Below, one piece after another: positions 1,311-34,425 of a DNA stretch of 34,425 nucleotides. Source of the stretch: a virus. A program made the position numbers and the translations under genes. The stretch is taken from positions 1 through 34,425 of the IMG/VR virus record IMGVR_UViG_3300027816_000252; one strand, 5' to 3'. The stretch's first letter is position 1. Every line of letters begins with the position of its first letter. The notes under the pieces are model-generated. The model saw nothing but the letters and a program-made list of their open reading frames with translations, was not told the origin of the DNA and searched no databases.

Positions 1311-2576
1311 TTAAATAACGAAGGCATCGGCGCTTTGAAGCATAAGGGATGTTAACGCCCACACAAGGGCGTCGACACGATCCGGGCTGTCGATGGCGTT
1401 CTGATCCGGGTGAAAGTTAAGCATCTGCCGCTCGAGGGTCGGATGCTCCCCAACGTGAAATACGGCGTTGCTTTCGTAAAGCGCATAGACGGGTTCTGCC
1501 CGGGCATACTTCCCCCGACTAGCCCGGACATCGATAACGCGCACCGTCCGGTCAACGGTCTGAACGGTCGACTTGACAAGATCGCCGCCCTGATTCGTCT
1601 CGGCGACGATGCTCCCGTTCCACCGCTTTGCCGCCTGTACCGCAACCGTCGCCCATTGGTTCGGGGTATACCGGCCCGAAAGATCCTCGAGGACGTATGC
1701 CTTCTTGTTCTTGTCAACCCCACAGACGACAATACCCGTCTCGTTGCTGTCCATCGTGGCGGTCATCGCGGGGTCGACGCCTACAAGGACACGCCGGAGA
1801 TCCGTCGGGGCGGAAAGGATGCGGCACCGCTCGATCTGCCCCCGGGTCCAGAGGAGGCCGGGGTTATCCTTTGACCAGCGGCCCTCGAAGATGTGCGCAT
1901 AGCGGGCGGGGTTGGCAAGGCGGATCTCCTCGGCCTTTTGAATCCACGTTGCCGAGAGGTTATGCCGGTTATCCTCCCAAGTCGTATGCACATAAAGGGT
2001 GTCAGGACGTGGATCCTTGACAAACATCCGGTAGAGGAAATGCTCCTCGTTGGTCGGGTTAAGGACGACAATAACGCGGTTGGGCAGGGTCTTGTGGCGA
2101 ATTGAGAGGTCGATGCGATCGAATGTCTCCTCGTCTACTAGCTCCTCGGCCTCGTCAAGCACCCACGTTGTCACACCCTGAATCGATTTAAGGGCCGCGG
2201 TCTGGTTCCCTGAGCTAGTCTTAATGCCGCGGAATAGGATCCGGGACCCCGTGCGGAGGTTAACGATCTCCGATCGCGTAATGTAGAAATCATCCTCGAC
2301 TGCTAAGAGGCCGATCTTCTCCCGGAACTCGGGGATAATCGACACATCGGCAGAGCTTAACGTGTAGCGGGTAAACAGGATAACGTGCCCCGGTTCATAC
2401 GTCAGGTTAAGCAGGGCGAGGGCAACGTGAAATGACTTACCGGACCCACGGCCCCCGGTAACAAAGGCATACCGCCATTTAGCGTCCCCGCCGAGTACCG
2501 GGGTCTGCCGAAACAGGGGCCGGTACTGGTGAAGAAGAACGACCCCCGAGGTCAGGGGTTCAGCTACAGCGGTCAC
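1311..2576 (-). CDS. terL: Terminase large subunit
   Basis: ATP-driven DNA packaging motor and headful/cos nuclease, 421 residues. Walker A is GGRGSGKS at residues 41-48, Walker B is VLDEAEE with D141/E142, and the coupling-type NPTN motif is near 173. The C-terminal RNase H-like nuclease has GVDPA with D268, an ETNQGG motif near 325 and DRVDALVWAL near 400, giving the expected acidic triad. The layout is of the PBSX/Terminase_3 type. The start overlaps the stop of the small subunit gene by four bases (ATGA-type coupling). Both domains look intact. Confidence 0.97.
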   Translation of the reverse strand: MTAVAEPLTSGVVLLHQYRPLFRQTPVLGGDAKWRYAFVTGGRGSGKSFHVALALLNLTYEPGHVILFTRYTLSSADVSIIPEFREKIGLLAVEDDFYITRSEIVNLRTGSRILFRGIKTSSGNQTAALKSIQGVTTWVLDEAEELVDEETFDRIDLSIRHKTLPNRVIVVLNPTNEEHFLYRMFVKDPRPDTLYVHTTWEDNRHNLSATWIQKAEEIRLANPARYAHIFEGRWSKDNPGLLWTRGQIERCRILSAPTDLRRVLVGVDPAMTATMDSNETGIVVCGVDKNKKAYVLEDLSGRYTPNQWATVAVQAAKRWNGSIVAETNQGGDLVKSTVQTVDRTVRVIDVRASRGKYARAEPVYALYESNAVFHVGEHPTLERQMLNFHPDQNAIDSPDRVDALVWALTSLMLQSADAFVI

Positions 2577-2959
2577 GGCTGTTGCGGATCCACAAGATCG
2601 TCAGTCCACGCGATCGGGGGCTTGGCAACGTGTTCCCCCTTGCTCGTAACGTCAAGATCCTTGCGCTCGATATAGCCTCGATGACGGGCCTTTGTCTTGA
2701 GGAAGAAGATCGTCGCGCTTGCCTCTTGGTTTCGGATCTGCTGAAACAGGCTTGACTCGGCAAAGTCGACGGCGACCTCCCCGAGATCCTCGACCGCGGC
2801 CTTGTATTCCTCGTCGGTGCGCATCCAGAGGTAATGCGTAGCCCGAGGGACTTCGGCCTTCTCACACGCGGCGGTAACGATGCCGAGCGTTTGGCGGAGG
2901 GCCTCGAGCATCGCCTTTTTAAGTTGTTTAGTTGTGGTTGGGCGGGCGGATCCGGGCAT
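2573..2959 (-). CDS. terS: Terminase small subunit-like protein
   Basis: A 128-residue protein directly before terL, with overlapping stop and start. The N-terminal half reads like a helix-turn-helix of phBC6A51-type small terminases (residues about 14-50, with TAACEKAEVPRATHYLWMRTD and then an EYKAAVEDL helix). It is followed by LFQQIRNQEASATIFFLKTK, a segment seen in that family, and RGYIERKDLDVTSKGE near residue 105. It should recognise the packaging site and load TerL. The assignment rests on this pattern and on gene order. Its start overlaps the stop of the upstream ParB-like gene as TAATG. Confidence 0.85.
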   Translation of the reverse strand: MPGSARPTTTKQLKKAMLEALRQTLGIVTAACEKAEVPRATHYLWMRTDEEYKAAVEDLGEVAVDFAESSLFQQIRNQEASATIFFLKTKARHRGYIERKDLDVTSKGEHVAKPPIAWTDDLVDPQQP

Positions 2960-3645
2960 TAGCTAACTCCTTGCGATTCTTGCGCTTGCCATTCTTGGCG
3001 TAGTTTAATCTGGGCGCGGGTCTCCCACGCCTTTGCATATTCGACGTTTTCAAAGAGCTTTGAGAAGCCGGTGATGTGCTTAAGTTTAAGCAGTTCTTCG
3101 GGTTCCATCCCTAGCTCGTTACAGATCGCGGCATCGGACCAGCCTCGGTCGAGCATCGAGAATACCATCTGCGCCATCCCGGTAACCGAGTGTTCACCCC
3201 GGGCGCGGTTATGGCGGACGGTCGAGGCCATGCGGTCGTTCAGGTCCTTCTCGATGACAACAACCGGGAGGTAGCCGAGGTTCCGTTCCCGGATGTCAGG
3301 GTTTGTCTTACAGGTAAAGTAGCGGTGAAAGCCGTCGACAATAACATACTTGCCCCGTTCTGTGTCCCGGATCACAACGACGGGCTGAGTGTACCCGTCG
3401 TGCTTGATCGAGGTGTAAAGGAGGGACATCTCCTTGCCCGCGACCGAGTTAGGGTTGTAGTCGTTCGCCTCGACCTGTTCGATCGGGACCCATCGGACGC
3501 GATCGACCGGCTGACCCCGAAGCGGGGATCGGACTGACAAGCTATCACGGATCTCCTCGATCGCCCGGAGCCGCTCGTCGTGGTCGTCGCAGAAGTCGAG
3601 GTAGGCCCATACCTCGTCGATAACGTCGGAAAGACTGTTAGCCAT
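2959..3645 (-). CDS. ParB/IbrB-like protein
   Basis: A 228-residue ParB-fold protein resembling IbrB/YbdM, the partner of the PAPS-reductase-like IbrA. Seen: VRWVPIEQVEANDYNPNSVA near residues 49-68, then EMSLLYTSIKHDGYTQPVVV, and the ParB box-like IVDGFHRYF near residue 107. The C-terminal part (GEHSVTGMAQMVFSMLDRGW, then ICNELGMEPEELLKLKHITG) looks like a ParB-type helix-turn-helix. In known operons IbrB and IbrA are adjacent and act together, and here the IbrA-like gene is immediately upstream with an 8-base overlap. ParB-fold proteins can be CTPases, nucleases or kinases; the activity here is unknown. Its placement between that enzyme and TerS links the pair to packaging or DNA handling by inference only. 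Confidence 0.85.
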   Translation of the reverse strand: MANSLSDVIDEVWAYLDFCDDHDERLRAIEEIRDSLSVRSPLRGQPVDRVRWVPIEQVEANDYNPNSVAGKEMSLLYTSIKHDGYTQPVVVIRDTERGKYVIVDGFHRYFTCKTNPDIRERNLGYLPVVVIEKDLNDRMASTVRHNRARGEHSVTGMAQMVFSMLDRGWSDAAICNELGMEPEELLKLKHITGFSKLFENVEYAKAWETRAQIKLRQEWQAQESQGVS

Positions 3646-4795
3646 TAATGTAGGGGTTGGTTTGAAGGTGCTTTAGGGGAATCTGGTCGCCGCGGTCGTA
3701 CTTGCGCCAAGTAGCTACCACAGGGCTCGCTTCCCAGTTGCCGAGCTTTGTAAACTCAAAGTCGTTAGCAAGGATACTGCCGATCTCGGCCTTGTGCCGC
3801 CTTTCTTGCGACCGCATACGGGCGTACTTGACATCTAGCTTTGCAAACTTGCGGGCGAACCCCTCCCTCTTGTCGTCGTCCGTTATCAGGTACTTAAGGA
3901 GGTGATCTCGGTACTCGGCCCACGTTGCAAACATCGGCGGCAGGGTTTTAACTGGCTCGAGGGCGACCTGTTGTAAGTGCTTAACGGTATTAATGCCACG
4001 GAGCCGGTAGACAAGCCGATTCCACGTTGCCGGTTCGATTTCCTGTAGGAACCGGAGGTGCTTGGTCGCGGTTTCGTGATGCAGATTGCTAACGCGCATA
4101 TCCTGAACGTGGTATCCGTACTGATACATTTTGTTATATATGTCGCAGTAGGTCCATCCGTTTGAGTGTATCGCTTTCCACACATCGCGGTAGCCCCAAT
4201 CATAGATCGGGTAAAAGTTGTAGTGCCCCCGCTTTCGGTCGGAGATCGTGCCCCACGTTGCCCACTTATAGGTTGCTTGCATCGTTACCCCCATCGCCCG
4301 GGCGGGGCTCTCCTCGGCCCGGACGCCACCGATTGTTGCAACCGGCGTGTTAGGGTAGTAATGCCGAATCAGGGCCGGGAATAGCTCGGCGAACCGATCG
4401 GTATCCGTCGGGTTCTCCGTGACGGCCTGAGGCCACTTCTGTCGCATCCAGCGGGCTTCGTCCTCGGGGTTCCAGCACCAAAGCCACGGTTCCTCGGCGC
4501 TCGTCGCGTTAAAGAGGCGCATCGGCATCTGAAACCAGAGCGGTTGGACGCGGGAATCCTCCATAACGGTCTGCACATAGTCGACCGTCGCTTGCCACTC
4601 GGCCTCCTGATCAATCCACATTACCGGGACCGGGAGCCGCCCCCGCCGCTCGGCTTCCTCAAGCGTAAGGTTTAGCACAACACAAGAATCCTTGCCGCCA
4701 GAAAAGCAGACGACGACTTGCGGAAACTCGTCAAACAGCCACGCGATACGCTTGCGGGCCGCGGTAAGCACATCCTCTGATAAGTAGATCTTCAT
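3638..4795 (-). CDS. PAPS-reductase/IbrA-like PP-loop enzyme
   Basis: A 385-residue phosphoadenosine-phosphosulfate-reductase-superfamily protein (adenine nucleotide alpha-hydrolase fold). The PP-loop SGGKDSCVVLNL is at about residues 32-43. It is followed by PVMWIDQEAEWQATVDYV (second strand and helix) and IGGVRAEESPAR near residue 158, a typical PAPSR loop. The C-terminal part (FYPIYDWGYRDVWKAI, NKMYQYG, MRVSNLHHE) matches the IbrA/YbdN (DUF3440-like) type rather than a sulfate-assimilation CysH. Related PP-loop enzymes activate sulfur for DNA phosphorothioation (DndC) or tRNA. No sulfur donor or carrier gene is visible here. It overlaps both neighbours, so the genes are probably translationally coupled. 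Confidence 0.88.
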   Translation of the reverse strand: MKIYLSEDVLTAARKRIAWLFDEFPQVVVCFSGGKDSCVVLNLTLEEAERRGRLPVPVMWIDQEAEWQATVDYVQTVMEDSRVQPLWFQMPMRLFNATSAEEPWLWCWNPEDEARWMRQKWPQAVTENPTDTDRFAELFPALIRHYYPNTPVATIGGVRAEESPARAMGVTMQATYKWATWGTISDRKRGHYNFYPIYDWGYRDVWKAIHSNGWTYCDIYNKMYQYGYHVQDMRVSNLHHETATKHLRFLQEIEPATWNRLVYRLRGINTVKHLQQVALEPVKTLPPMFATWAEYRDHLLKYLITDDDKREGFARKFAKLDVKYARMRSQERRHKAEIGSILANDFEFTKLGNWEASPVVATWRKYDRGDQIPLKHLQTNPYING

Positions 4796-5172
4796 AGCCG
4801 GATGGTAACATAGGTTGTTAACCCACGCCGCCGATGTACCGTGGCACCGTATTTTACATAGGTCGGTAGGCTTGAATCCGTAACGAATGCCGCCGCCGAT
4901 CGGATGCTCATCTTCCGGCAGAGTTCAAGCCGCCGCTCGAACAAAGTCGTATAGATCCCGCGGTTCCTATACTGACTTAGGACATAATCGTTCTTAAAAA
5001 ACGTGCGCGGGCCCGAGAGAAGGATCCCGACAAATCCGGCAAGCTGATTGTCCTCGGTATAGGCTCCGAGATACAGGGTCTTTTCTGCCTTCTGAAACGT
5101 TAAGAGTTCGTCCTGTGCCTCTTTAATATACGGACGAATCTCTTGCGCAGTAATCATCTTGATCGTAATCAC
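4792..5172 (-). CDS. GNAT-family N-acetyltransferase
   Basis: A 126-residue protein with the GNAT fold order: an N-terminal helix (IRPYIKEAQDELLTF), strands LYLGAYTEDNQLAGFVGILL, then motif A as VLSQYRNRGIYTTLFERRLE (residues about 64-83, acetyl-CoA pyrophosphate loop), followed by a strand with FVTDSSLPTYVKYGA, the usual motif B. The acceptor is unknown. It sits between the PP-loop enzyme and the glycosyltransferase-like gene with four-base overlaps on both sides, so it belongs to the same cassette and may modify the same target. The family call is firm and the substrate is not predicted. Confidence 0.85.
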   Translation of the reverse strand: MITIKMITAQEIRPYIKEAQDELLTFQKAEKTLYLGAYTEDNQLAGFVGILLSGPRTFFKNDYVLSQYRNRGIYTTLFERRLELCRKMSIRSAAAFVTDSSLPTYVKYGATVHRRRGLTTYVTIRL

Positions 5173-5723
5173 GGCATCGGATCCCGGAAGGTCAAGCTTT
5201 GCCGCTTACTACTGCGGCGGGGGTTAATCGCGCTCTTGACTTCGCGATGCTGAACTAAGCTTGGCACGTGCAAGCGGTACGGCTCTCGGCGGGAGCGCAG
5301 AAAGTCATTAATCATCGTATCCGTGCCCGTCGGATGTTCGGCGCGGCGAGGCCATTGGTCGGCATACTCCCGGATCTGTCGCGAATACGACAAGGGCAGA
5401 TAGAAGCATTGATTCATTAGGTAGTTGCGATCGAAGCGGGTCCCGAGCGTAAGATCGGCCTTGCGCATCGAGAAGAACTGCAGGACGCGATGCGGCGTCT
5501 CCTCGATAAATGCCTCGATCTTTGACAGGAATCCTTGCGTTAACAGAATATCTTCCTCGAGGTGAATACACGGGTCTTGCCCTGCAAGATCGAGCGCCCG
5601 CATAAACGTATCCCACGCATCGCGCCGTTCATCGAATACCCACTCGGCGCTCGGAAGATGCCGCCGCAGATATGCAATGCAGTCGACACGCTCCGGTACC
5701 GCTCGGACGATTATCCGGGTCAT
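5169..5723 (-). CDS. Glycosyltransferase-like protein
   Basis: A 184-residue protein. The N-terminal half has strands MTRIIVRAVPER and AEWVFDERRDAWDTFMRAL, followed by CIHLEEDILLTQGFLSKIE, where EED at 56-58 resembles the DxD metal-binding motif of GT-A glycosyltransferases. VLQFFSMRKADLTLGTRF, then MNQCFYLPLSYS and LHVPSLVQHREV resemble small phage glycosyltransferase-like proteins. Donor and acceptor are unknown. The C-terminus is basic (NPRRSSKRQS), which could suit nucleic-acid contact. It overlaps both neighbours by four bases within the modification-like cassette. Confidence 0.7.
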   Translation of the reverse strand: MTRIIVRAVPERVDCIAYLRRHLPSAEWVFDERRDAWDTFMRALDLAGQDPCIHLEEDILLTQGFLSKIEAFIEETPHRVLQFFSMRKADLTLGTRFDRNYLMNQCFYLPLSYSRQIREYADQWPRRAEHPTGTDTMINDFLRSRREPYRLHVPSLVQHREVKSAINPRRSSKRQSLTFRDPMP

Positions 5724-6040
5724 ACGGGCTTTCGCTGGCGCACGATCGGGGCGCGGTTAAGCACCCGGGTTTGCTCGATCGGGTTCCCCATCGTCCAATA
5801 CTTCCATTCCCCGATATTGAGGTAAACAAAGGTTCGCTTGCCGAACCGGTCCTCGTACCCATAGGTGCGCACGATCTCGACTGCCTCGGTAAAGGTAAGG
5901 CCGGGACCATCGTTCCATCGCTCGCGCAGGGCGTATTCGTGCGGGATCCACGGCATCGTTTTAGCAAACGTCCAGATCTGCCCCGGGATGGCGTCTGTAA
6001 GTCGCGCCAACGCGACCGACCGCTCGTTAACCGTCGACAT
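5720..6040 (-). CDS. Conserved phage protein of unknown function, aromatic-rich
   Basis: A 106-residue protein with motifs WTFAKTMPWIPHEYALRERW (residues about 23-42), FTEAVEIVRTYGYEDRF, and NIGEWKYWTMGNPIEQTRVL near residue 75. The concentration of Trp, Tyr, Pro and His in fixed blocks suggests an enzymatic or ligand-binding domain rather than a linker. I cannot name the family. It overlaps the glycosyltransferase-like gene by four bases and the ParB2 gene by 14, so it is part of the same cassette. Confidence 0.75.
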   Translation of the reverse strand: MSTVNERSVALARLTDAIPGQIWTFAKTMPWIPHEYALRERWNDGPGLTFTEAVEIVRTYGYEDRFGKRTFVYLNIGEWKYWTMGNPIEQTRVLNRAPIVRQRKPV

Positions 6041-6554
6041 AAAAATCGTGTGCGCAGTTAGGACAGGTCATTTGCTTCTGTGTAGTGCCGCGGCTAAACG
6101 GGTCTTGTAGCTTTTCGGAGGCGGCATTAATATCGCGATCCGTTACGGTTGTCCGATCGGCTTTGGGGTCCTCGTTTGGGAGGAACGGAAGGTCAAGCCC
6201 CCACGACGTTAACTCATACACATCCCAGTCGTCGTGATTTTCAAAGAAGGAGGAAAAAGCAAACTCGCCAGCGTGTACGTTGTCCTTAATGACAAGCTCC
6301 CGCTGTTGTGCCTCGGTAAGATCGGCGGCACGGATAACAGGTACATCGGACATCCCGATAGTCCTTGCGGCCTGATACCGTTGATTGCCAGCGAGAATCA
6401 TCCCGTTGCCATCGACGATAATCGGGCGGAGCTTAAGCATCTCGGGAAAGGTGCGCACGCTCTCGACGAGCCGCTGAAACTTGGCATCGCGGACAAAGCG
6501 CGGGTTCTTGGGGTTCGGGTAGATGTCCCCGACCGGTACAAGGGCATACTCCAT
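6027..6554 (-). CDS. ParB-like N-terminal-domain protein (ParB2) with CxxC tail
   Basis: A 175-residue protein with a typical ParB N-terminal domain (PF02195 type): YALVPVGDIYPNPKNPRF, LRPIIVDGNGMILAGNQRYQ (the ParB box as AGNQRYQA), then VPVIRAADLTEAQQRELVIK and DNVHAGEF. The C-terminal end has CPNCAHDFY, a single CxxC pair that may bind zinc on dimerisation. I chose the ATG at 6552-6554, preceded by GGAG with a 6-base gap; the longer open frame upstream overlaps another gene and looks non-coding. In phages such proteins often accompany adenine methylases or modification genes, but no methylase is present here. It differs from the IbrB-like protein at 2959-3645, so the cassette holds two distinct ParB-fold proteins. 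Confidence 0.85.
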   Translation of the reverse strand: MEYALVPVGDIYPNPKNPRFVRDAKFQRLVESVRTFPEMLKLRPIIVDGNGMILAGNQRYQAARTIGMSDVPVIRAADLTEAQQRELVIKDNVHAGEFAFSSFFENHDDWDVYELTSWGLDLPFLPNEDPKADRTTVTDRDINAASEKLQDPFSRGTTQKQMTCPNCAHDFYVDG

Positions 6555-13414: not shown

Positions 13415-13616
13415 CGCGCAGAGCCCTCAGGACTAGGGTTTCCATTCTCGGCAAATCGTTGCCGCACCACGGGCAGACCGTCCACGGCTCAAGCACATCA
13501 CGGGAGCGCCACCAGACCCATCCGACACCCCACAGATAGGAAAAGTCGCCACGATCCCGGGCCGCTTTACGATGCTCGCACGGGATAGGGCTCCAATCGC
13601 GACAGGTTTCGCTCAT
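13398..13616 (-). CDS. Small Cys-rich protein
   Basis: A 72-residue protein, rich in Trp (FSYLWGVGWVWWRSRDVLEP) with CPWCGNDLPRMETL near residue 48 and two earlier cysteines (residues 5 and 13) that could complete a zinc site. The ATG overlaps the stop of the phosphoesterase gene. The WxxCPWCGN pattern resembles small phage zinc proteins of unknown role. Confidence 0.7.
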   Translation of the reverse strand: MSETCRDWSPIPCEHRKAARDRGDFSYLWGVGWVWWRSRDVLEPWTVCPWCGNDLPRMETLVLRALRDGLET

Positions 13617-14959
13617 ACGGTCCCCCGCCGCGGCGAGCTATGTAAATCGGGGCTCCACGCATCGGAGCCCACCAGCGCCCCGCCACGGTGATACACGAAC
13701 CCCTCGATCATCCGGGGGGAGACGGAGAACTTTTCGTCCGCGTGATACTGATCGGGCGGACAGAGAGCGGCGTGAGTGCGCACCGTAATCCCGCCGTGCG
13801 TCGAGATCGCCGCCTTGCCGTGAAGGTGTCCGGTGTGCATCTCGCGGTAGATCGTCTGCCCCCACTCGACCGCGCATTGTGCCGCCATTACCTCGGCAAG
13901 CCGTTGCTTCCCCTTGTCCCCGTGATCGAGCCCGATCAGCACTTGTCCGTGCTGTAGGTACTTCGTCGTCGTGTTCGAGTCGTCGATCTGCACCCGCCGG
14001 TTCCGACGAAACTCCGAGACGAGGATCCGCTGTAATGCCCACGTTAACGTGCGGTCGTGGTTTCCGGGGACGAGGATCACGCGAGTTTCTACCCCCTCGG
14101 CACTCGCGGCGATTAAGTCAAAAAGCACCTCGGTGCCGCGCTTTAACATCTGCTGAACACGGCTGTCGTAATCGAGGATTGTCCCTTTCGTCGTCGCGCC
14201 CTGTCCGTCGTGGTGAAAGTAGTCCCCAAGAATCCAGAAGTGACGGGTCCCCACCTTGCGCTCGGTTCCGGCCTCGACAAGCGCCGTCACCCCGTCACGG
14301 ATCGTTCGGATAGCAATATCGGTGTCGTAACTCTGCGCACCGGTCCCCTCGCCCCACGCAAGCTTGGCAATATGCGGGTCGGCGATGACAATCCCCTGTA
14401 GCAGATCGTTTGCAGTTCCACGTGAAACATTTCCGATGAGCGGCTTCCGGGAAGCAAAGGCCCCCTCGAGGATTGCCGTTACCCGTTCCTCGACCGACGG
14501 GCCCGCCTTTGGGCGAAGCTTAACAAAGACACGGTGTAGCTCGGTCGTACTAACGCGGCCCGTAGCAAGATCCTTTGTCGCAACCTCGTACTTTGTGGCC
14601 TGACTCTCGGCAACCTCGAAGCGCGTTAGGTCGGCCTTAATGTGCCGCAAGAGATCGTCGACGGTCTTAATCCGGGATCCGTTCGCCCGCGCCTCGAGCC
14701 CGTCCGCGCTTTCGGTCTGCTCAACGGACTGCTCGCGCTCCGCAAGGCCGCGGAACTCCTTCGGGCGGGGCCCGACCTTAATGCCCTGCTTGCCCCGCTG
14801 TAGCTGTACGGCGGTCAGCGTCCGCACGGGGAGGCCGCGGTGAAACTCGCGATTAAGGGCCTCGGTAACTAAAGGCCCCGGCATTCCCTCGGCGGAGAGT
14901 TTAGCTAACCGCTTAAGCTCGCGGGTTGACCACGGGGTGAGATCGTTTCGATGGGCCAT
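13613..14959 (-). CDS. Calcineurin-like metallophosphoesterase
   Basis: A 448-residue protein. All five blocks of the metallophosphoesterase fold are seen: DPHIAK (about 194-199), GDYFHHD (about 245-251), VPGNHDR (about 297-303), a GLDHGD segment near 344, and GHLHG (about 377-381). The first 80 residues (WSTRELKRLAKLSAEGMPGP, LNREFHRGLPVRTL) look like a helix-turn-helix. A HTH plus phosphoesterase arrangement suggests a DNA-directed nuclease or phosphodiesterase, possibly in recombination or replication; the substrate is not determined. I prefer the ATG at 14957-14959. The position after the lysis genes is unusual for a DNA enzyme. Confidence 0.85.
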   Translation of the reverse strand: MAHRNDLTPWSTRELKRLAKLSAEGMPGPLVTEALNREFHRGLPVRTLTAVQLQRGKQGIKVGPRPKEFRGLAEREQSVEQTESADGLEARANGSRIKTVDDLLRHIKADLTRFEVAESQATKYEVATKDLATGRVSTTELHRVFVKLRPKAGPSVEERVTAILEGAFASRKPLIGNVSRGTANDLLQGIVIADPHIAKLAWGEGTGAQSYDTDIAIRTIRDGVTALVEAGTERKVGTRHFWILGDYFHHDGQGATTKGTILDYDSRVQQMLKRGTEVLFDLIAASAEGVETRVILVPGNHDRTLTWALQRILVSEFRRNRRVQIDDSNTTTKYLQHGQVLIGLDHGDKGKQRLAEVMAAQCAVEWGQTIYREMHTGHLHGKAAISTHGGITVRTHAALCPPDQYHADEKFSVSPRMIEGFVYHRGGALVGSDAWSPDLHSSPRRGTV

Positions 14960-15153
14960 TCCGGGAGCAGAAGGCGATCGATCAGCCACTCTCGCACGGC
15001 CCGACCGTCCGGGTGTGCCGAGGGGACGGATCCATCGGGGTTGCGGTTTATGTCAATGTGTCCACCACACAGACAGGACAGGCAAGGGGGCTTCCTCGGA
15101 TCACTACTCTCACCCTCACACTCGGGACAAAAAACACGAACGGAATAGGGCAT
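14905..15153 (-). CDS. Zinc-binding protein of unknown function
   Basis: An 82-residue protein. CPECEGESSDPRKPPCLSCL near residues 9-28 gives CxxC...CxxCxC, a probable zinc site. The second half (REWLIDRLLLPEWPIETISP) is helical. It overlaps the phosphoesterase gene by 55 bases, more than most overlaps here, so one of the two starts may be further downstream. GGGGA lies eight bases before ATG 15151-15153. Confidence 0.65.
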   Translation of the reverse strand: MPYSVRVFCPECEGESSDPRKPPCLSCLCGGHIDINRNPDGSVPSAHPDGRAVREWLIDRLLLPEWPIETISPRGQPASLSG

Positions 15154-17145: not shown

Positions 17146-20100
17146 TTAGCTCTCCAGTTGAGCCACGCGCTCGCGTAGCGATTTGATTTCTGCCAGCATC
17201 AGGGGAATCATTGCGGTATAGCTCACCATCTGCAACTTGGGCGTCCCGTCCTCATTCACCGCATCCTTCTCACCGTCAACAGCAGAAGGATACGCCTCTT
17301 GTAATTCGTGGGCCACCACCATCGGGTACTTACCAGACTCACCATTGATGGTACCTTCATGCACCTTCATCTTGTCAAACACTTCGCCAGACTTAGTGTA
17401 GGCACCGTGGATCGTCTTGATCCGGTAGTCGGATGCCGTGGTCAGGTTGAGCGTCGCGTTGTCGCGGCGATAGTTGATATAGCCACGCAACGTCCGAGCG
17501 TTGTTTTGCCCGTCCGAGTAGAAGCTGATGAAGTACGTCGAGCCGCTCTCGACATTGTTCCAGACGTAGAGCGGCGACTGATTCGCGGTGTTGCTCGTGC
17601 CGTTGATTTCTGCCGTACTGCCCGACGATTCATTGACTACGAGGCGCGACCCGTTCCATCCGGTGCCGTTGACAAGAACATCACCGCCCTCCTTAATAGA
17701 AAATGGTGCCGAAGATTGCAACGTCTTATTCGTAACCGTGAACGCATCCGTTCCAGTTCCATACGGGTTGATGCCGATAATCCATTGCCGCGTGTAGGTG
17801 CTATCGTTACCCGGAGAGCCTGACCCACCAGCGGCGATTGCTATGGTTGATTCTCCATCATTCGGATTCGCAACCTGAAACTGCCCCCAGCTAGATGACG
17901 TTGACGTAACGAGTAGCTTGGCGCTCCCATTCACATGCAACCGTGCATAAGCTGACGGAGATGTCGTACCGATACCGACGAAACCATCCGATTTTTTTAT
18001 GAAAACGGCGGCGTTTGATGACCCAACCTGAATGTTTGTGTTGATGTAAAGACTGCCCTTGTTCGTTGCCGCCCCTTCGCAACCAATCTCTATCTTCGTC
18101 GTGCCAGCCTGTGCGAAGTTGAGATAGGCATAGTCAGACGTTGCGTTGATGGTCAGCGCGGCGTTGCCACCGTTGCCGTCAATGAGAACCGACTGCGTCG
18201 TTCCATTGTAGCTCGTCGCCACCGCACGGAAAATCGAGGTGCCAACAACGTCCAGCTTATATGCCGGACTCGTCGTGCCGATGCCGAGGTTGCCAGTAGT
18301 GTTCTGAATAACAACTGGAAATCCGCTATATCCAACATTATAAAATCCAAAGTTGTCAGAGTTTTCATAAATACCACAAAACCAACGCTGTGCTCCTGCG
18401 GCGTTGTAATAGTTTACGCCAGCGGATGCATTATCCGCTCCACGTTGCGTGCCAATCATTCCATAAGTATTGCCACGAAACCACGCGACAGGAGAGGAAC
18501 CTGCCGCTCCACCGTCGACGTTAAACTTATATGTTGTTGTTGTTGTACCTATGCCGACGTTGCCGGAGTTGGTCAAGCGCATTTTTTCGCTGTTCGACGA
18601 ACCAGTTCCGGTAATAAACTTTATTCCAGCGGCGGAGTCGTCAAAGATGCTGAACAACTCGAGCGATCTTCCGTCACTCCCGAGACGGAATCCAGCGTCA
18701 TAAGTTCCACCACCGAAAAACTTGATGCGATAAGACGCGCCCGGATTCCATGACAACGTCATGTTGCCATTGACGTCTAACTTTTCATTCGGTGTATTTG
18801 TACCGATGCCGACGTTACCGGTTGCGGTAATAGTTACCGCGTCAGTCTGCAAAGCGCCGTTCTTCGTCCAAAGGTGCAACTCACCAGATGCCCAGCCACC
18901 GGACACCCCGCCAACCTTGCGAGCCGCAATACCAGCCCAGCTTACCGTATTGCCAGCACCAGCCGTTTCACGCCCACCCATCGACAACTTGACCCATGTA
19001 TTGTTCGTCCCGTTCTCGTTGTGCATGAAGAACGCGACAGGCGCTTCGTCGATGCCACCCGTTGCGCTGGAATCAAGACGGACTCTCGACTGCGGAATCT
19101 GAAAATACGAACTTCCTCCATCCAAATAGGAGTCGTACATATAAATCGCACTACTGTTCGTATCACCATTGACGCCAACGCTACCGAGTACCGATAGCTT
19201 GTTGTATGGCGCGGTCGTTCCGATCCCGACGTTACCAGATGTGTCGATGCAAAGCCGTTCTATTGTCGCAGTCTGGTCATATATTACATATCTAGAATCG
19301 CCAAGTAATCCAGTACGCCAATGCCTTGATGCGTTCTGATATACATCATAAGCGTAAGCACTTGTAGAATATCGCCTAATAGATGCACCAGCCGCACTAC
19401 TAGCCGACATTACGTCGAGCTGATATTCGGAGTTAGTAATAAAACGTCCCTGTCCTGATACATCGAATTTATAACTTGGGCTCGACGTACCGATGCCAAC
19501 GTTGCCAGCGAAGTAGGCGTCCCCGTTAAGAAGACTGATATACGCTTGAAGCGTACTTGTTCCAGCACCGACAAAGCCGATTGAGTTTCCGGGCAACCCA
19601 GATACCGCCGAGTCAATCTGGCGGTGATAGATACCCCAGTTGCTTCCGGTATCCGCAGAATCGAGATATACCCATGCATCCCTATCGTTTGGCGGTGAGT
19701 AGAGATACACATTCGACGAAGGGTTAGCCGTCTGGTAGCTGTTGAGAATAAGACTATTGACGCCAGCATAGCGGTTGGCAGTTACCGTGCTACTAAACGA
19801 ACCCGTCGTAGCGTTGACGGTACCGCCCGACTGATTTGTTGCTGTCGTAGCCGTTGCCGCATTTCCGCTGATGCTGATACTCCACGTTCCGCTTGGCGTA
19901 ATCGTAGAGACGCCAGTAAGACGGCCCTTGGAGTCTACCGTGAGGCGCGGAATCGCATTGTTCCCGCCGTAGGTGCCAGCGACAACGGCGGTATCCGCAA
20001 GCGTTGTCGCAATAGACGTTGTGCCAGAACCCGTGACATCGCCAGACAACGTGATAGTCTGATTGCTTACCGTGATGCTTCCACCAAGCGACACGGAACT

Positions 20101-23100
20101 TCCGTTGATGGTGATGCTAGAATTGGCAAGTCGAGCGTTGTCAATCGCGGTAAATCCCGCACCAAGTGCACCGCTGGTCAGCGTACCAACGGAAGTCAGC
20201 GACGAATTGATGACGCCTGTGCCAAGCGTAGTCGCAGACAGCACATCTATTGCGGTGCCACCGCCGTTCAGAATCTTGTATGTCTCACCGAACGCAACGC
20301 GCACACCGCTCGTAAACGTAACGCTGTTGGAGAACGTATAGCTCGCGCCAGAGAACGTTCCCGCCGTGACGTTGTTCGCCGAGACGGATCCGACCGCCGG
20401 GACTGCCCAGACGCCGTTTGCGTTTAGGAAGTAGGTCGCCCCAACGTTGTTCGATCCGGGGACGTAACCCGCCGTCGTCGTGGTCGTGCTAAAGTTTGGC
20501 GGGGTCGCCCACGTTATGTCGCCCGTCGTGCCAGCCGACTGTAGGAACTGACCCGAGGATCCTGCGGCGACCGCCTCAAATGCGTTGCCGACAATATCGT
20601 AGACAATCGCCCGTGTTCCGGTCCCGGTAACGCCATAGCTTGTCGCGTTCGTGCCGCCGTTCGCGATTGCGACCGTGCCGGTGACGTTGCCCGCGTTGCC
20701 GCTGACCGAACCGGTGATCGTATTCGTGACGGTGAGGTTTGTCAGGGTGCCGACCGACGTCAGGCTCGAGGCCGTCACGCCGGACGCCAACGTCGAGCCG
20801 GTGAGCGTCCCCGCCGCCGCCGTTACGGTGATGTCCGCCGTCCCGTTGAACGAGACGCCGTTAATGTTGCGGGCCGTCTGCAACGCCGTTGCCGTCGACG
20901 CATTTCCGGTCAGGGTCCCCGTCAGAGTCCCGGAGACCGTCAGGTCGTTCGTGATCGTGTAGGACGCCCCGGAGAACGTCCCCGCCGTCACGCTCGAGGC
21001 CGGGATGCTCGGGGTCTGAAACCGCGCCGTAGTTGCCCCGGTCGCCTGTAGGATCATCCCGCTTGTAAGCCCGGACACGCTATGCTCGGGACCAAGCGCG
21101 GTCGTCGTCGCAAGGACGTGCAAGCCGGGAGCAGGGTTCCCCCACGCAAGAGCCCCGCCGCTGTAAATCAGTCCTTGACCGTTAGACCCTGTAGGGCCAA
21201 CCTCAAAAACACCCGAGCCGCCGTCATAGACAAAAATGCGTTCGTTTGTAATCCCGGTAAAAGCCGTGGATGTTAAGCCGGTACCGCCATAGTCTTTGCC
21301 AATCGAGGTCCCCTGCCAGACGCCGGTCGCAATCGTCCCGACCGAGGTAAGGCTAGAAGCCGTAACACCTGAGGCAAGCGTAGTTCCCGTCAAGGTCCCT
21401 GCGGCGGCAGTTACCGTGATGTCGGCACTCCCGTCAAAGGCCACCCCGTTAATATTGCGGGCCGTCTGTAGGGTCGTGGCGGTCGTCGCGTTCCCGGCGA
21501 GGGCCGCGGTAACTGTTCCGGCGGAGAAGTTACCAGAGGCATCACGGGCCACGACCTTGCTTGCCGTGTTATTCGGTGTCGCATCGACATCCGTTGTAAC
21601 ACTCGCGGATCCGTCGTAACTCCCGCCCGTTAGGTAGTTGCCGAGCGTTAGGGTCGCCTGTCCCGCAATGCTCGTAGCTTGCGTGTTACTAAGGAAATCA
21701 TCCGGGATGCCAATAGGCGTCCCGCTCCGTGCCGTCCCGGGCGTCCCGTCGAGGAACCCTGAGAGCCGGTAAAACACACGGTACCATCGGGTAATGCCGT
21801 CCGACGGTAGAACATCGACATAGGTAGCTGTAAGGGGCGGGAGCGTGTCAAGATCTGCAAACGTTCCCGGGGCCCCGGAGACATTCGGAGCCCGCTGAAC
21901 TACGATGTTATAGCCCTCGACTGCCCCGATCGTCAACGCAATACCGGTCGTCTGACCCGCGTTCGGAAATGAGGTGTAGAGCTTCATCTTCGGTGCGGCG
22001 GGTGCCGACACCGTGTTAAGCGCGGCGGTCGTAACAGTCGCCGTAGCAAACCCGGAATATGCCCCCGTCCCCTCGTCCCGGAATGCAACCCCAAACGTAT
22101 ACTGCGTTGACGGGGTAAGATCCCGAACGATTGTCGATGTCGACCCTGCCGACAGGGTGCCAATCCGGAATGCGGTCCAATCCGCGGGCGCGGAGGCTCC
22201 CGGGTAGGCAAAGATGTCAAGGGGGTCTAAGGTGTTCGGTGTTGGGCTCCCGAGACCGATCGTAAACGTTACCGCGTCTGCCGTAACGTTTGAGGTCGTA
22301 AGCGAGTTTGGCGCAACCCACGCGCCGAGGTCGACATAGGTCCACGCGGTCCACGCCGACGCACGAAGCTCTGTCTTTTCCGTGCGCATCCGGACGTACA
22401 CGCGGCTCCCCGGGGGGACAACGGGAAGCGTAAAGGCGATCGTCGGAATCGTGCCCGGGCGGAATCGTGTAAAGAGCGTGCCCGTTCTCGTCGTCGGTGT
22501 CGTTGCAGAAACCTGATACTGCACCGCAAGGGTAACATTCGAGCTATTTAGGGTCGCGGCATTCGTAACGGTCGCGGTCGCAATCCGACGGGGCTCCCCG
22601 GACCACGCGGCAAGCGTAAAGGTCGGGGCCGTCGGTTGAGCACTTACCCCTGAATCGACAAGCTTGTAGCTCGGGCCCTCCGGGGTCTCCGTGCGACGGA
22701 CGATCTGCGCGATCCGATTGCCAACGTTTGACTCGCCGATCCGGTAGTTCTTGTTTGGGTAATACGAGGCCGCGATGTTTACCTCGTCGCCAACCTGTAG
22801 GTTCGCGGCAGAGGAACTCGCAATAACCTGTACCTCGGACGCCACCGCGCCTCGTCCAAAGCGGTCAAAGCCTTCCGCGACAATCCCTGTAAAGAACCGT
22901 TGCACGACCTCAGGCGAAAACGCAAACGCCCCATTACTCGCCGATCCGTCGTGAATCATCCCCGGGATCTCATACTTGACCTCCTTCGTCGAGTATGTCG
23001 AGGTGTCCGCGTTCTGTGCGGCGATCGTAACCCCCTGCGCCGTTAGGCCGTCAGGCGGTGGGGGATCCCGAAGCTCAGGGTCCTGATCAAAGACCGAGAA

Positions 23101-24456
23101 ACTGGTTGACGTTAGGCGGAAACCAGTAACAACGGTGCCTTCGTCGAGGTCATAAATAGCGGGCGGTGTGTCGCCAACGATGTCTGCGTTAGCAATCGTA
23201 ATCGTCGGTGTCGCACTATTACTGATGCGGGTCGGGAAGAACTCTTGCTCCCCTGCCGCGTTCGTGCGCACGGAGAACCCGAACGGGCCGAAAATCGACG
23301 AGGACAAGAACTCGCCCATATTAACGGGCTCGGTAATCCGTAGCGCAAGGCGGACATCCGTGCCGACTGCGGCCTTTGTACTCGTTACCGAGGCGGCGTT
23401 AAAGGGGATGTTAACCGTTTCGTAGAGCTTAGAAACAATGTCAACCGGATGCTCGTCGATATAGAGCGCACTCTCCGGCGCGACCTCCTGACTCACCAGA
23501 CGCACCCGGACCTTAGCATTCGTCGACGGATAGGAGGTCGACTGCCCCGGTGTAAGTTGCACAAAGAGATAGTTCTGATCGCCGAACGGCGGGATCTGAA
23601 CTTGCCCTAAGCCCGTCAGCGTATATCCCGGGGGAGTAAACATTCCGCGGACGGTGCCGTACCATACGCTTGCCCCGGACTCTACGATCGCGAGAACAGA
23701 GGGATAAGCATTAACAAACTGCCGCTCCCGGATCTGCTTATAGTTGTCCCCGGTAAGATCTGCAATCGGGGGTTGCCTCTCGTAAAACCGTTGCATCGCC
23801 GCCTTAATCTTAGCAAGCGGAGGCGTTACCGTCCGCGCATAACTTGGCGGGTCATACGCGGCGACAAAGGCGAGGGCAAGGTAGCCACTCTGCACCTCAC
23901 GCCACGCGAACTCCCAGCCGCCGGATGCGCGGATCGGCCCAAAGTTCTGAATCGTCGGGCCTCCGACAAGACAGCCGCGGTTCGGGAACTCCCGGCGCTC
24001 GTCCGTCGCGGCAAGCGGATCGGATGACCAAGTAAAAATGGTATGCGTCGACTCGATCCGGCGGGAGTCGGACACCGTGAAGCTGTAGGTAATTGCATCG
24101 ACTTGCTGAATGCCGGTCAAATAACCGAGCGTCCAGATCGAATAGGTCGAGCCCCCATCCCGCGAGCATTCGAGCTTGGCACGACGGGACAAGAGTTGCT
24201 GACGAAACTGATTGTCCTCGAGCTTGTTCGTAATAAGGCGGACGGTGCCGGTACCGTCGGTGCCCGTGACAATATCGGCGACCGTAACAACGTAGGCCCC
24301 GGATCGCACCGCGCCTGTAAGGAGATCGACCTCTTGCCCATCGCCGCTTGGCACATCGACGATGTACGGATTCGATCCGCCCCGCTGTGATGTGACGGTA
24401 AGATCCGGGGTGGTTCCGTTAGCCTGATAGATCGTGAACCGGAAAAGAACCGTCAT
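17146..24456 (-). CDS. Giant fused tail hub/fibre with peptidase S74 chaperone
   Basis: A 2436-residue protein, about 21 percent of the genome. Residues about 1-620 (TVTSQRGGSNPYIVDVPSG, IDEHPVDIVSKLYET, YEIPGMIHDGSASNG) look like a gpJ-type hub. About 640-920 contain fibronectin-III-like repeats (TAPTFTLAAW, SLTTSNVTADAVTFTIG, STQYTFGVAFRD). About 930-1500 hold glycine/threonine-rich repeats. Six GNVGIGT-like beta repeats lie at about 1650, 1735, 1872, 1962, 2052 and 2155. The C-terminus is an intramolecular chaperone: SDYRIK with the Ser-Lys dyad S2342/K2347, VVAHELQEAYP, and a coiled coil to the end. The S74 domain normally trimerises the fibre and then cleaves itself off just before the Ser. 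It is followed on the minus strand by the 120-residue protein. Confidence 0.93.
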   Translation of the reverse strand: MTVLFRFTIYQANGTTPDLTVTSQRGGSNPYIVDVPSGDGQEVDLLTGAVRSGAYVVTVADIVTGTDGTGTVRLITNKLEDNQFRQQLLSRRAKLECSRDGGSTYSIWTLGYLTGIQQVDAITYSFTVSDSRRIESTHTIFTWSSDPLAATDERREFPNRGCLVGGPTIQNFGPIRASGGWEFAWREVQSGYLALAFVAAYDPPSYARTVTPPLAKIKAAMQRFYERQPPIADLTGDNYKQIRERQFVNAYPSVLAIVESGASVWYGTVRGMFTPPGYTLTGLGQVQIPPFGDQNYLFVQLTPGQSTSYPSTNAKVRVRLVSQEVAPESALYIDEHPVDIVSKLYETVNIPFNAASVTSTKAAVGTDVRLALRITEPVNMGEFLSSSIFGPFGFSVRTNAAGEQEFFPTRISNSATPTITIANADIVGDTPPAIYDLDEGTVVTGFRLTSTSFSVFDQDPELRDPPPPDGLTAQGVTIAAQNADTSTYSTKEVKYEIPGMIHDGSASNGAFAFSPEVVQRFFTGIVAEGFDRFGRGAVASEVQVIASSSAANLQVGDEVNIAASYYPNKNYRIGESNVGNRIAQIVRRTETPEGPSYKLVDSGVSAQPTAPTFTLAAWSGEPRRIATATVTNAATLNSSNVTLAVQYQVSATTPTTRTGTLFTRFRPGTIPTIAFTLPVVPPGSRVYVRMRTEKTELRASAWTAWTYVDLGAWVAPNSLTTSNVTADAVTFTIGLGSPTPNTLDPLDIFAYPGASAPADWTAFRIGTLSAGSTSTIVRDLTPSTQYTFGVAFRDEGTGAYSGFATATVTTAALNTVSAPAAPKMKLYTSFPNAGQTTGIALTIGAVEGYNIVVQRAPNVSGAPGTFADLDTLPPLTATYVDVLPSDGITRWYRVFYRLSGFLDGTPGTARSGTPIGIPDDFLSNTQATSIAGQATLTLGNYLTGGSYDGSASVTTDVDATPNNTASKVVARDASGNFSAGTVTAALAGNATTATTLQTARNINGVAFDGSADITVTAAAGTLTGTTLASGVTASSLTSVGTIATGVWQGTSIGKDYGGTGLTSTAFTGITNERIFVYDGGSGVFEVGPTGSNGQGLIYSGGALAWGNPAPGLHVLATTTALGPEHSVSGLTSGMILQATGATTARFQTPSIPASSVTAGTFSGASYTITNDLTVSGTLTGTLTGNASTATALQTARNINGVSFNGTADITVTAAAGTLTGSTLASGVTASSLTSVGTLTNLTVTNTITGSVSGNAGNVTGTVAIANGGTNATSYGVTGTGTRAIVYDIVGNAFEAVAAGSSGQFLQSAGTTGDITWATPPNFSTTTTTAGYVPGSNNVGATYFLNANGVWAVPAVGSVSANNVTAGTFSGASYTFSNSVTFTSGVRVAFGETYKILNGGGTAIDVLSATTLGTGVINSSLTSVGTLTSGALGAGFTAIDNARLANSSITINGSSVSLGGSITVSNQTITLSGDVTGSGTTSIATTLADTAVVAGTYGGNNAIPRLTVDSKGRLTGVSTITPSGTWSISISGNAATATTATNQSGGTVNATTGSFSSTVTANRYAGVNSLILNSYQTANPSSNVYLYSPPNDRDAWVYLDSADTGSNWGIYHRQIDSAVSGLPGNSIGFVGAGTSTLQAYISLLNGDAYFAGNVGIGTSSPSYKFDVSGQGRFITNSEYQLDVMSASSAAGASIRRYSTSAYAYDVYQNASRHWRTGLLGDSRYVIYDQTATIERLCIDTSGNVGIGTTAPYNKLSVLGSVGVNGDTNSSAIYMYDSYLDGGSSYFQIPQSRVRLDSSATGGIDEAPVAFFMHNENGTNNTWVKLSMGGRETAGAGNTVSWAGIAARKVGGVSGGWASGELHLWTKNGALQTDAVTITATGNVGIGTNTPNEKLDVNGNMTLSWNPGASYRIKFFGGGTYDAGFRLGSDGRSLELFSIFDDSAAGIKFITGTGSSNSEKMRLTNSGNVGIGTTTTTYKFNVDGGAAGSSPVAWFRGNTYGMIGTQRGADNASAGVNYYNAAGAQRWFCGIYENSDNFGFYNVGYSGFPVVIQNTTGNLGIGTTSPAYKLDVVGTSIFRAVATSYNGTTQSVLIDGNGGNAALTINATSDYAYLNFAQAGTTKIEIGCEGAATNKGSLYINTNIQVGSSNAAVFIKKSDGFVGIGTTSPSAYARLHVNGSAKLLVTSTSSSWGQFQVANPNDGESTIAIAAGGSGSPGNDSTYTRQWIIGINPYGTGTDAFTVTNKTLQSSAPFSIKEGGDVLVNGTGWNGSRLVVNESSGSTAEINGTSNTANQSPLYVWNNVESGSTYFISFYSDGQNNARTLRGYINYRRDNATLNLTTASDYRIKTIHGAYTKSGEVFDKMKVHEGTINGESGKYPMVVAHELQEAYPSAVDGEKDAVNEDGTPKLQMVSYTAMIPLMLAEIKSLRERVAQLES
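20751..20911. repeat. Fibre-internal repeat, copy 2
   Basis: About 54 codons of the fibre gene that encode nearly the same peptide as 21337-21498 (LQTARNINGVSFNGTADITV, then TLTGSTLASGVTASSLTSVG), but with many synonymous base changes. It lies at about residues 1182-1235 of the fibre. Confidence 0.85.
21337..21498. repeat. Fibre-internal repeat, copy 1
   Basis: About 54 codons encoding LQTARNINGVAFDGSADITV then TLTGTTLASGVTASSLTSVG, the partner of 20751-20911. The protein is nearly identical while the DNA has diverged, which points to an old duplication kept by selection on the protein. Confidence 0.85.
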
Positions 24457-33392: not shown

Positions 33393-34425
33393 TTATGCCG
33401 GTTCATCGCTGTAGGCCAACACGCACCGACAGTTAATAACTTCGTCTGCATCGCCATCCGGGTCAAGCGGATACATAAGGCCGTTCGACTCGAATGGCTG
33501 ATCGATTGGGATGCTTCCTTCGCCCATACAAGCCGTGTGTGTATCGCGGGTCTCCTTGTCAGAGAATGCGAGCCACTCCTTCGACCGATAGACATCGCCC
33601 ATCTCTTGCGCCTGATCCCACGACCCCTGAGATAGCGCCCCGGCGGACTCGGTTCGGGCAATCATTGTAGCGCGAACGTCCATCCGTTCCTCACCATAGA
33701 CGGCCCGGGCGACGAGCCGGGATGCCTCGGTAATGGTGAGACCAGCCCGCTCGGAGGCGACAAGGACGGAGACCACCTCATCAGCCGTCGTGCCCCCGAC
33801 CCGCTCGGCAAGCTTTTGGGCGCGGCGGCGGATCGCGTTTTCAACGCTTGCAACCGACCGCTTGGTAAGGCCAGACTCGACGGTGTCCGCGGCAAGCTCG
33901 GCCCCGACCCCGGCGACCTCGGTAGCCCCAAAGCCGTAGCTCTTGGCAATATGCGGGGTAAATGACTCGTTCCAGTTCTCGTCGAAATCGCCGTTTATCG
34001 AGTACGCCTGACGCACCCGCTGGCGAGCTTCGGCATAGTCGGAGGCGTTCGCGATGCTCTTGCTTACCTTTGGGCGCTCGGCGCGGAACAGAGCCTCGGC
34101 AGTCGCCTTGTAGGTCTGCTCGGTGCGGTCAAGCTCTTGCATCGCCCGCTCGTAGATCCCGCGCTTGCGGGCCATCTTCGGGTCGATCGGGGCGTCGTTC
34201 CGGTCCTTAAGCTTTTCCTTTTCCTTGCGGATAACAGCCCGCATATGATCGAGCCCGCGGTCGCCGACGGCGAGCCACTTAATCTGCGCCACGACCCCGG
34301 CGGTCTGAAAGTCGCCCCGGTGCCGAGCGACCCACGCCTCCCGCAACCGGATGGCGTTCTCCTCCGCCTCTCCGTCGGGCACCCCGCCGCGCTTCGCGAT
34401 CGGCGCGAGCTTACGGAACTGCTCG
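33393..34425 (-). CDS. Mu F-like minor head protein (cut by window edge)
   Basis: A minor head protein that binds the portal and may be ejected with the DNA. The C-terminal Phage_Mu_F domain is clear: ATMIARTESAGALSQGSWDQ, then WLAFSDKETRDTHTACMGEG and DEVINCRCVLAY (about 230 to the end), including the conserved Cys pair of NCRCVL. The N-terminal part is helical (DPKMARKRGIYERAMQELDR). Within the window the frame is open to base 34425. Continuing at base 1, the frame reaches a GTG at 9-11 that is preceded by GGAGGAG with a 7-base gap, for a total of 347 residues. An in-window GTG start at 34382 (329 residues) is possible but has no comparable site. It would overlap the portal stop. Confidence 0.9.
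   Translation of the reverse strand, partial: EQFRKLAPIAKRGGVPDGEAEENAIRLREAWVARHRGDFQTAGVVAQIKWLAVGDRGLDHMRAVIRKEKEKLKDRNDAPIDPKMARKRGIYERAMQELDRTEQTYKATAEALFRAERPKVSKSIANASDYAEARQRVRQAYSINGDFDENWNESFTPHIAKSYGFGATEVAGVGAELAADTVESGLTKRSVASVENAIRRRAQKLAERVGGTTADEVVSVLVASERAGLTITEASRLVARAVYGEERMDVRATMIARTESAGALSQGSWDQAQEMGDVYRSKEWLAFSDKETRDTHTACMGEGSIPIDQPFESNGLMYPLDPDGDADEVINCRCVLAYSDEPA

Follow-up and report, generated by a model that had tools for sequence, protein, structure and literature searches.

Several described systems resemble parts of the locus analysed here. In the DNA modification loci of two phages, the Mom protein of Mu has a GNAT fold and the β-glucosyltransferase of T4 is a GT-B enzyme. 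Protein pairs of the IbrAB type are widespread in phages and bacteria, and to our knowledge no biochemical activity has been assigned to them. IbrAB was reportedly described by Sandt, Hopper and Hill in 2002 as an activator of eib prophage genes. The function of the related ybdNM operon of E. coli is unknown (PMC9068703). The phage loci for 5-carboxymethylcytosine (CmoA/CmoX/CmoY) have ParBc genes nearby (PMC12783734), and DndC has a 4Fe-4S centre bound by cysteines, together with a cysteine dyad (PMC10853773).

The window, i.e. the whole stretch of 34,425 nucleotides corresponding to positions 1 to 34,425 of the IMG/VR virus record IMGVR_UViG_3300027816_000252, contains a run of six open reading frames that leads into the terminase genes:

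6027 to 6554, minus strand: ParB1 (P0001), 175 amino acids, ParB_N-domain protein, first gene of the cassette
5720 to 6040, minus strand: P0002, 106 amino acids, small aromatic-rich domain
5169 to 5723, minus strand: P0003, 184 amino acids, predicted GT-A-fold glycosyltransferase
4792 to 5172, minus strand: P0004, 126 amino acids, GNAT-fold acyltransferase, GTG start
3638 to 4795, minus strand: P0005, 385 amino acids, PP-loop ATP-pyrophosphatase-type enzyme of the IbrA/YbdN type (PAPS_reduct and DUF3440)
2959 to 3645, minus strand: ParB2 (P0006), 228 amino acids, ParB/sulfiredoxin fold, IbrB equivalent
2573 to 2959, minus strand: TerS, small terminase subunit (phrog_4044, 2e-6), a neighbour outside the cassette
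1311 to 2576, minus strand: TerL, large terminase subunit (Pfam Terminase_3, 4e-31), a neighbour outside the cassette

As the original prediction had it, all six frames are present, overlap by 4 to 14 bases (14, 4, 4, 4 and 8 from ParB1 to ParB2, with the ParB1 start set at the ATG at 6554) and read into terS and terL; ParB2 overlaps terS by one base, and terS overlaps terL by four. The complete genome is circular or permuted and measures about 34.84 kb, of which some 413 bases are absent from the window.

Like IbrA/IbrB (E. coli ybdN/ybdM) and the annotated phage pairs, the locus encodes a PAPS_reduct plus DUF3440 enzyme and an adjacent ParB-fold partner, but here the pair sits next to the terminase genes, in the company of a glycosyltransferase, a GNAT protein, P0002 and another ParB. 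With the CmoA/CmoX/CmoY system it may share a handle-plus-ligation logic, an ATP-dependent enzyme and ParBc proteins nearby (PMC12783734), whereas no CmoA, CmoX or AsnB-type CmoY was seen in the window, the PP-loop family is a different one and a glycosyltransferase is present. Dnd/Ssp systems also have a PP-loop enzyme near a protein of the ParB superfamily, DndB (PMC10853773); unlike them, the window shows neither a conserved cysteine in its PP-loop enzyme nor DndA, DndD or DndE. Mu likewise has a transferase within its modification locus, but a sequence relation between Mom and P0004 was not detected (one Mom sequence, 22 columns, E 0.12, no significant profile match). The glycosyltransferase recalls the T4 α- and β-glucosyltransferases; however, P0003 is GT-A by its model and T4 β-GT is GT-B, and no dCMP hydroxymethylase was recognised in the window, nor any enzyme providing a hydroxyl handle for the glycosyltransferase among the scanned phage open reading frames.

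P0005 is assigned to its family by Pfam matches to PAPS_reduct (E 5.2e-19) and DUF3440 (E 1.4e-9), both over the curated cut-offs, and by a match to phrog_2302 (1e-81). In an alignment of 119 sequences of the family each position of the SGGKDS motif is kept in at least 92%, and no column holds cysteine in more than 59%. The closest solved relatives are FAD synthase, CysD and CysH, of which FAD synthase and CysD match best. Identification of P0005 as a PAPS reductase (CysH) was rejected: the catalytic cysteine is not conserved, and the NCBIfam scores of the CysH type lie far under the cut-off. Judged by its sequence, adenylyl activation would fit P0005 better than phosphorothioation.

Both flanking genes encode ParB-domain proteins. 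ParB1 matches Pfam ParB_N (E 8.6e-7), phrog_620 (1.9e-23) and, with residues 33 to 171, the DNA methyltransferase family phrog_498 (3.5e-22), to the N-terminal part of which it corresponds. ParB2 matches ParB_N (E 5e-7) and phrog_2159 (4.8e-72), has the invariant motifs DGFHR and RxNRAxGxH in its alignment, and also matches free serine kinases. The first gene had been taken for IbrB, which was mistaken: it is the last gene, P0006, that adjoins the PP-loop gene and reaches 49% in the alignment with the protein annotated as IbrB in Streptococcus phage CHPC1148 (locus L035). In most relatives the ParB protein adjoining the PP-loop gene is ParB2.

P0003 matches the glucosyltransferases of phrog_854 (1.8e-5). 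Its model (pLDDT 96) resembles the Mimivirus R655 glycosyltransferase (Z 15.1), GnT-I (14.9) and COLGALT1 (14.7); comparison with 9crz covered 161 residues at 2.9 Å (Z 15.1). The family has an EDD-type acidic metal-binding motif, in which D58 is kept in 90% or more of the sequences. On the strength of modelled fold and acidic motif, P0003 is a predicted GT-A glycosyltransferase. P0004 scores over the cut-off for Pfam Acetyltransf_1 (7.1e-6), an alignment of its family finds numerous GNAT structures, the best of them at E 1.7e-11, and R69 is invariant in a YRxxG-type motif that agrees with the RxxGxG-type CoA motif. In P0002, P33, H34 and N95 are invariant and Y81, W82 and M84 almost invariant among 37 aligned members. 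When its predicted model (pLDDT 91.8) was compared with the PDB, no match exceeded Z 4.3 and none was significant. In several relatives, which belong to a separate cluster of 12 loci, P0002 and a class I methyltransferase domain are joined in one protein.

Viral loci were collected by the glycosyltransferase alone. Of the 66 loci found, 62 have the PP-loop gene in the same orientation and no more than 2.4 kb away; the four in which it was not detected are all short stretches. This linkage is far beyond chance. Among 135 non-redundant loci collected by the PP-loop gene, a gene of the ParB clusters occurs in 125, the glycosyltransferase in 59, a P0002-type gene in 38, GNAT in 29, a methylase-like protein in 27 and a protein with an HxD...H motif in 23. 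The HxD...H protein shares no locus with GNAT, and none with the methylase-like protein; these co-occurrences are read as counts, because the p-values disregard shared ancestry and are not taken as probabilities. In relatives the cassette often lies directly upstream of terL, and in all 39 glycosyltransferase loci having a clustered terL, which represent three separate TerL clusters, terL is downstream.

In other phages the position between the glycosyltransferase and the PP-loop gene is filled by a DNA adenine-methylase-like protein. Among solved structures this family comes closest to CcrM, DpnA and MboIIA, which are DNA adenine methylases, and ParB1 and the methylase-like family match consecutive parts of phrog_498. 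The HxD...H family had no match in Pfam or PHROG and no convincing one in the PDB; its invariant H85, D87 and H131 suggest an oxygenase-like protein. One related branch has an SNF2-type helicase.

The cassette is thus conserved as a unit: its core, the PP-loop enzyme and ParB2, is constant, and the companions are swapped among many unrelated phages. The original prediction would have been abandoned for an unconserved neighbourhood or for conservation of the IbrAB pair alone, and neither was found. The notion that the glycosyltransferase is missing from cellular genomes was rejected: in six genome loci (L192, L195, L196, L199, L200 and L201) profiles detected a glycosyltransferase-like gene close to the PP-loop gene, and the earlier negative scan had been limited by its search pattern.

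All six families are present in the cultured Microbacterium phage Hendrix (Rogerhendrixvirus), whose host is Microbacterium foliorum. Its right-end cassette is a single run reaching terL in the order glycosyltransferase, glycosyltransferase-like protein, methyltransferase containing the P0002 domain, GNAT, PP-loop enzyme, circular junction, ParB2, ParB1-like protein, terL. Identity to the window proteins is 36% for the glycosyltransferase, 38% for the PP-loop enzyme and 55% for ParB2. It differs from the window in that the P0002 domain lies inside a methyltransferase and in having an additional glycosyltransferase-like gene and a third ParB. No description of the function of the Hendrix cassette was met among the papers found. 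Relatives also occur in the isolates Treponema bryantii B25 and Flavobacterium sedimenticola YZ-48. The cassette is widespread and apparently undescribed in the literature searched, from which preprints and most subscription journals were left out.

Six-base palindromes are avoided in the window (observed/expected 0.668; 10 absent, 0.15 expected), similarly to the unmodified phage lambda (0.682) and in contrast to T4 (0.975); the ratio for Hendrix is 0.954. Among the cassette loci the median ratio was 0.726 with the glycosyltransferase versus 0.84 without it. Relief from palindrome avoidance, which is expected of complete protection although it does not strictly define a hypermodification system, was seen neither in the window nor in the glycosyltransferase loci. 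Given the avoidance in the window, and with the glycosyltransferase loci showing no improvement, general resistance to type II restriction is unlikely. The strong avoidance also argues against complete protective hypermodification of the DNA.

The exchange with a methylase-like protein, the match of ParB1 to phrog_498 and the position at the terminase genes make DNA the most plausible, best-supported putative substrate. We give an even chance to the reading that the six genes form one cassette for the modification of nucleic acid. It would most likely act on the DNA of the phage itself at a late stage of infection, and probably in a site-specific or partial manner. P0005 would use ATP, and no sulfur, to adenylylate either the target or a small donor, and ParB2 would be its obligate NTP-binding partner, placing it on the DNA. 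ParB1 may provide DNA targeting, a role that ParB domains could also have in fusions with DNA methyltransferases. The glycosyltransferase, and in the window phage also GNAT, would then decorate the installed group; in other phages the adenine-methylase-like or the HxD...H protein would replace GNAT. A bolder version, less likely than not, would be a hydroxymethyl-free hypermodification of DNA, in which a cysteine-free PP-loop enzyme and ParB install a new group on the base by adenylyl activation, and a dedicated GT-A enzyme together with a swappable GNAT, methylase or oxygenase-like protein decorates it. No characterised close homologue acting on DNA was found for any cassette enzyme.

The cassette could instead modify RNA, such as tRNA, or build a nucleotide-linked small molecule, the glycosyltransferase and GNAT decorating what is made so that defences based on tRNA or nucleotides are evaded. 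Some PP-loop enzymes have tRNA as their substrate, and that of FAD synthase is a free nucleotide. The nearest solved PP-loop relatives do use small molecules, the serine kinase matches of ParB2 point the same way and the scarcity of palindromes suggests that the DNA lacks broad protection, but the methylase-like partner, the ParB domains, the helicase branch and the terminase position all favour DNA, and we consider this alternative unlikely. Host takeover, with the PP-loop enzyme and ParB2 co-activating late transcription in the manner of IbrAB and the transferases being morons or modifying host proteins, appears distinctly unlikely. Phage annotations do name IbrA/IbrB co-activators of prophage gene expression; yet this would leave unexplained why the glycosyltransferase occurs almost solely beside the PP-loop gene, why methylase, HxD...H protein and GNAT exchange at one position, and the catalytic motif is intact in almost all sequences.

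It is very unlikely that the glycosyltransferase and GNAT act on virion proteins or host glycans, with the ParB and PP-loop genes neighbours by chance or otherwise engaged. GT-A enzymes of the same fold, e.g. COLGALT1, act on proteins, and seroconverting prophages employ glycosyl- and acetyltransferases (PMC12373910), but the tie to the PP-loop gene in 62 of 66 loci speaks against it, and surface glycosylation gives no reason to expect an operon of overlapping genes that includes ParB proteins, or a DNA-methylase-like substitute. DNA phosphorothioation through a DndC-like enzyme is hardly credible. P0005 has weak matches to DndC models (PADLOC 3.7e-7; NCBIfam 5.3e-5, far under the cut-off), whereas its family lacks a conserved cysteine and matches FAD synthase and CysD best, and no dndA, dndD or dndE was seen. 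Of the original proposal, the cassette as a conserved functional unit that includes both a glycosyltransferase and an acyltransferase is supported, and the DndC/sulfur analogy is not.

That IbrAB-type pairs are so closely linked with a dedicated glycosyltransferase and with exchangeable transferases suggests that they make a group that is later decorated, and Hendrix and the bacterial isolates with relatives make the function of such pairs directly testable. If DNA is the substrate, the cassette would add a new way in which phages modify DNA; if the hydroxymethyl-free pathway is true, it would also explain the biochemical role of IbrAB.

Directly before the terminase genes, a cassette of six genes runs into terS and terL; this arrangement, noted in the original prediction, is borne out by the ORF coordinates.

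6554-2959, minus strand: the six-gene cassette, neighbouring genes overlapping by 4 to 14 bases
First cassette gene, minus strand: P0001 (ParB1), ParB_N
Cassette, minus strand: P0002, small aromatic-rich protein, no match among Pfam/PHROG-type profile families
Cassette, minus strand: P0003 (GT), PHROG glucosyltransferase
Cassette, minus strand: P0004, GNAT
Cassette, minus strand: P0005 (PP-loop), PAPS_reduct and DUF3440
Last cassette gene, minus strand: P0006 (ParB2), ParB_N
2959-2573, minus strand: terS, entered by the cassette
2576-1311, minus strand: terL, downstream of terS

The gene names first proposed held except for IbrB, which corresponds to P0006 (49% when aligned to the protein annotated as IbrB in Streptococcus phage CHPC1148). 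A 99.9% identical contig joins position 1 of this IMG/VR virus record to position 34,425 through 413 further bases, which makes the genome circular or permuted, with a length of about 34.84 kb. Elsewhere, the minus strand encodes a 2436-aa tail protein (17146-24456), whose C-terminus by eye resembles an S74-type intramolecular chaperone, and a 458-aa protein (13613-14989) with a calcineurin-like phosphoesterase domain (Metallophos, 8.8e-5).

The cassette is almost certainly a conserved functional unit. A search for the same neighbourhood in other phages had been named beforehand as a check, and the neighbourhood proved conserved. Scanning viral contigs with the GT alignment alone gave 66 loci, 62 of which carry a PP-loop gene on the same strand at a distance of 3 to 2326 bases; it was not detected in the other four, stretches of 4.2, 4.5, 4.7 and 8.3 kb. 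Wherever a GT locus had a clustered terL (39/39), terL lay downstream. Three TerL clusters are represented, thus the cassette is not the relic of a single phage lineage. In a PP-loop-led search, neighbours were tallied over 135 non-redundant loci: ParB cluster 125, GT 59, terL 48, P0002-type 38, GNAT 29, methylase-like 27, HxD...H protein 23 and SNF2-type helicase 20. The commonest order is ParB1 - P0002 - GT - [GNAT or HxD...H or methylase] - PP-loop - ParB2 - (ParB) - terS - terL. The HxD...H family never shares one of these loci with GNAT or methylase, which suggests exchange in one position. No description of the cassette was found in the literature searched.

The HxD...H proteins (e.g. 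locus L154, 2828-3349, and relatives) have about 170 aa, almost always adjoin the GT and lack a Pfam, PHROG or convincing PDB match; they may be Fe-dependent oxygenases. In other phage branches, three more unnamed families without a convincing match immediately precede the PP-loop gene (clusters 21, 27 and 34; examples L086 6124-6999, L073 6255-6998, L112 6574-7002). The PP-loop gene is split over two reading frames in L010 and L011 (decay or sequencing error), and contig L084 has two opposed copies, probably an assembly artefact. In SPO1 (L188, 24642-25265) a ParB-like gene directly follows the large terminase gene.

Among 50,697 phage records, the only GT relatives (E up to 0.01) come from two records of Microbacterium phage Hendrix, in the same cassette. 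The Hendrix genome is circularly permuted (PMC7302621). Its record ends with the GT (36% to P0003, profile E 1.8e-45), a second GT-like gene (4.4e-5), a P0002-domain methyltransferase (1.7e-11), GNAT (6.9e-5) and, last, the PP-loop gene (38%); it starts with the ParB2 equivalent (55% over 184 residues), a ParB1-like gene, a third ParB, gp4 and terL. Across the junction, all six families thus form one uninterrupted run. Bacterial genomes with related loci include Treponema bryantii B25 (two GT-like genes, ParB, PP-loop, ParB2, methylase-like, terS, terL) and Flavobacterium sedimenticola YZ-48 (P0002-type, PP-loop, ParB2, terL).

P0003 is very probably a GT-A glycosyltransferase, judging by its model (pLDDT 96), which has this fold and matches Mimivirus R655 (Z 15.1), GnT-I (14.9) and COLGALT1 (14.7). 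The P0002 model is confident (pLDDT 91.8), with no structure match above Z 4.3; in several relatives a class I methyltransferase domain is fused to the P0002 domain. ParB2 matches ParB, Noc and free serine kinases. A profile comparison of P0004 with one Mu Mom sequence gave no significant match.

Across 119 P0005-family sequences the SGGKDS motif hardly varies, and among solved structures the family comes closest to FAD synthase, the sulfate adenylyltransferase subunit CysD and PAPS reductases. Whereas DndC binds its 4Fe-4S centre through cysteines and also has a cysteine dyad (PMC10853773), no cysteine column in the 119 sequences exceeds 59%. From these sequence features we infer that, instead of transferring sulfur, P0005 catalyses adenylyl transfer or activation; the enzyme probably acts without sulfur.

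Complete hypermodification is expected to lift the pressure for losing restriction sites, so palindrome avoidance counts against complete protection. In the window six-base palindromes reach 0.668 of the Markov expectation, ten are absent (0.15 expected by chance), and CATG (15 vs 82 expected) and AATT (12 vs 46) are scarce, which suggests past type II restriction pressure. In 40-kb stretches the six-base ratio is 0.682 for lambda, 0.975 for T4, 0.857 for SPO1, 0.954 for Hendrix and 0.692 for Arthrobacter phage Laroye; of the annotated cassette phages, Hendrix thus resembles a protected phage, whereas Laroye, which has no GT, does not. The median is 0.726 for cassette loci with GT (n = 29, at least 12 kb) and 0.84 for those without (n = 30), so presence of the GT is not accompanied by relief from avoidance. 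The substrate may be something other than DNA.

Gene company gives DNA an even or slightly better chance of being the substrate. In other phages the same cassette position is taken by a methylase-like protein whose best matches are the DNA adenine methylases CcrM, DpnA and MboIIA, and successive parts of the DNA methyltransferase family phrog_498 are matched by ParB1 and this protein. An SNF2-type helicase joins the cassette in a related branch. ParBc genes are also present in phage 5-carboxymethylcytosine loci, according to a paper which adds that such genes are often fused to DNA methyltransferases (PMC12783734). Any DNA modification may be partial, site-specific or recently acquired, or may guard against other defences.
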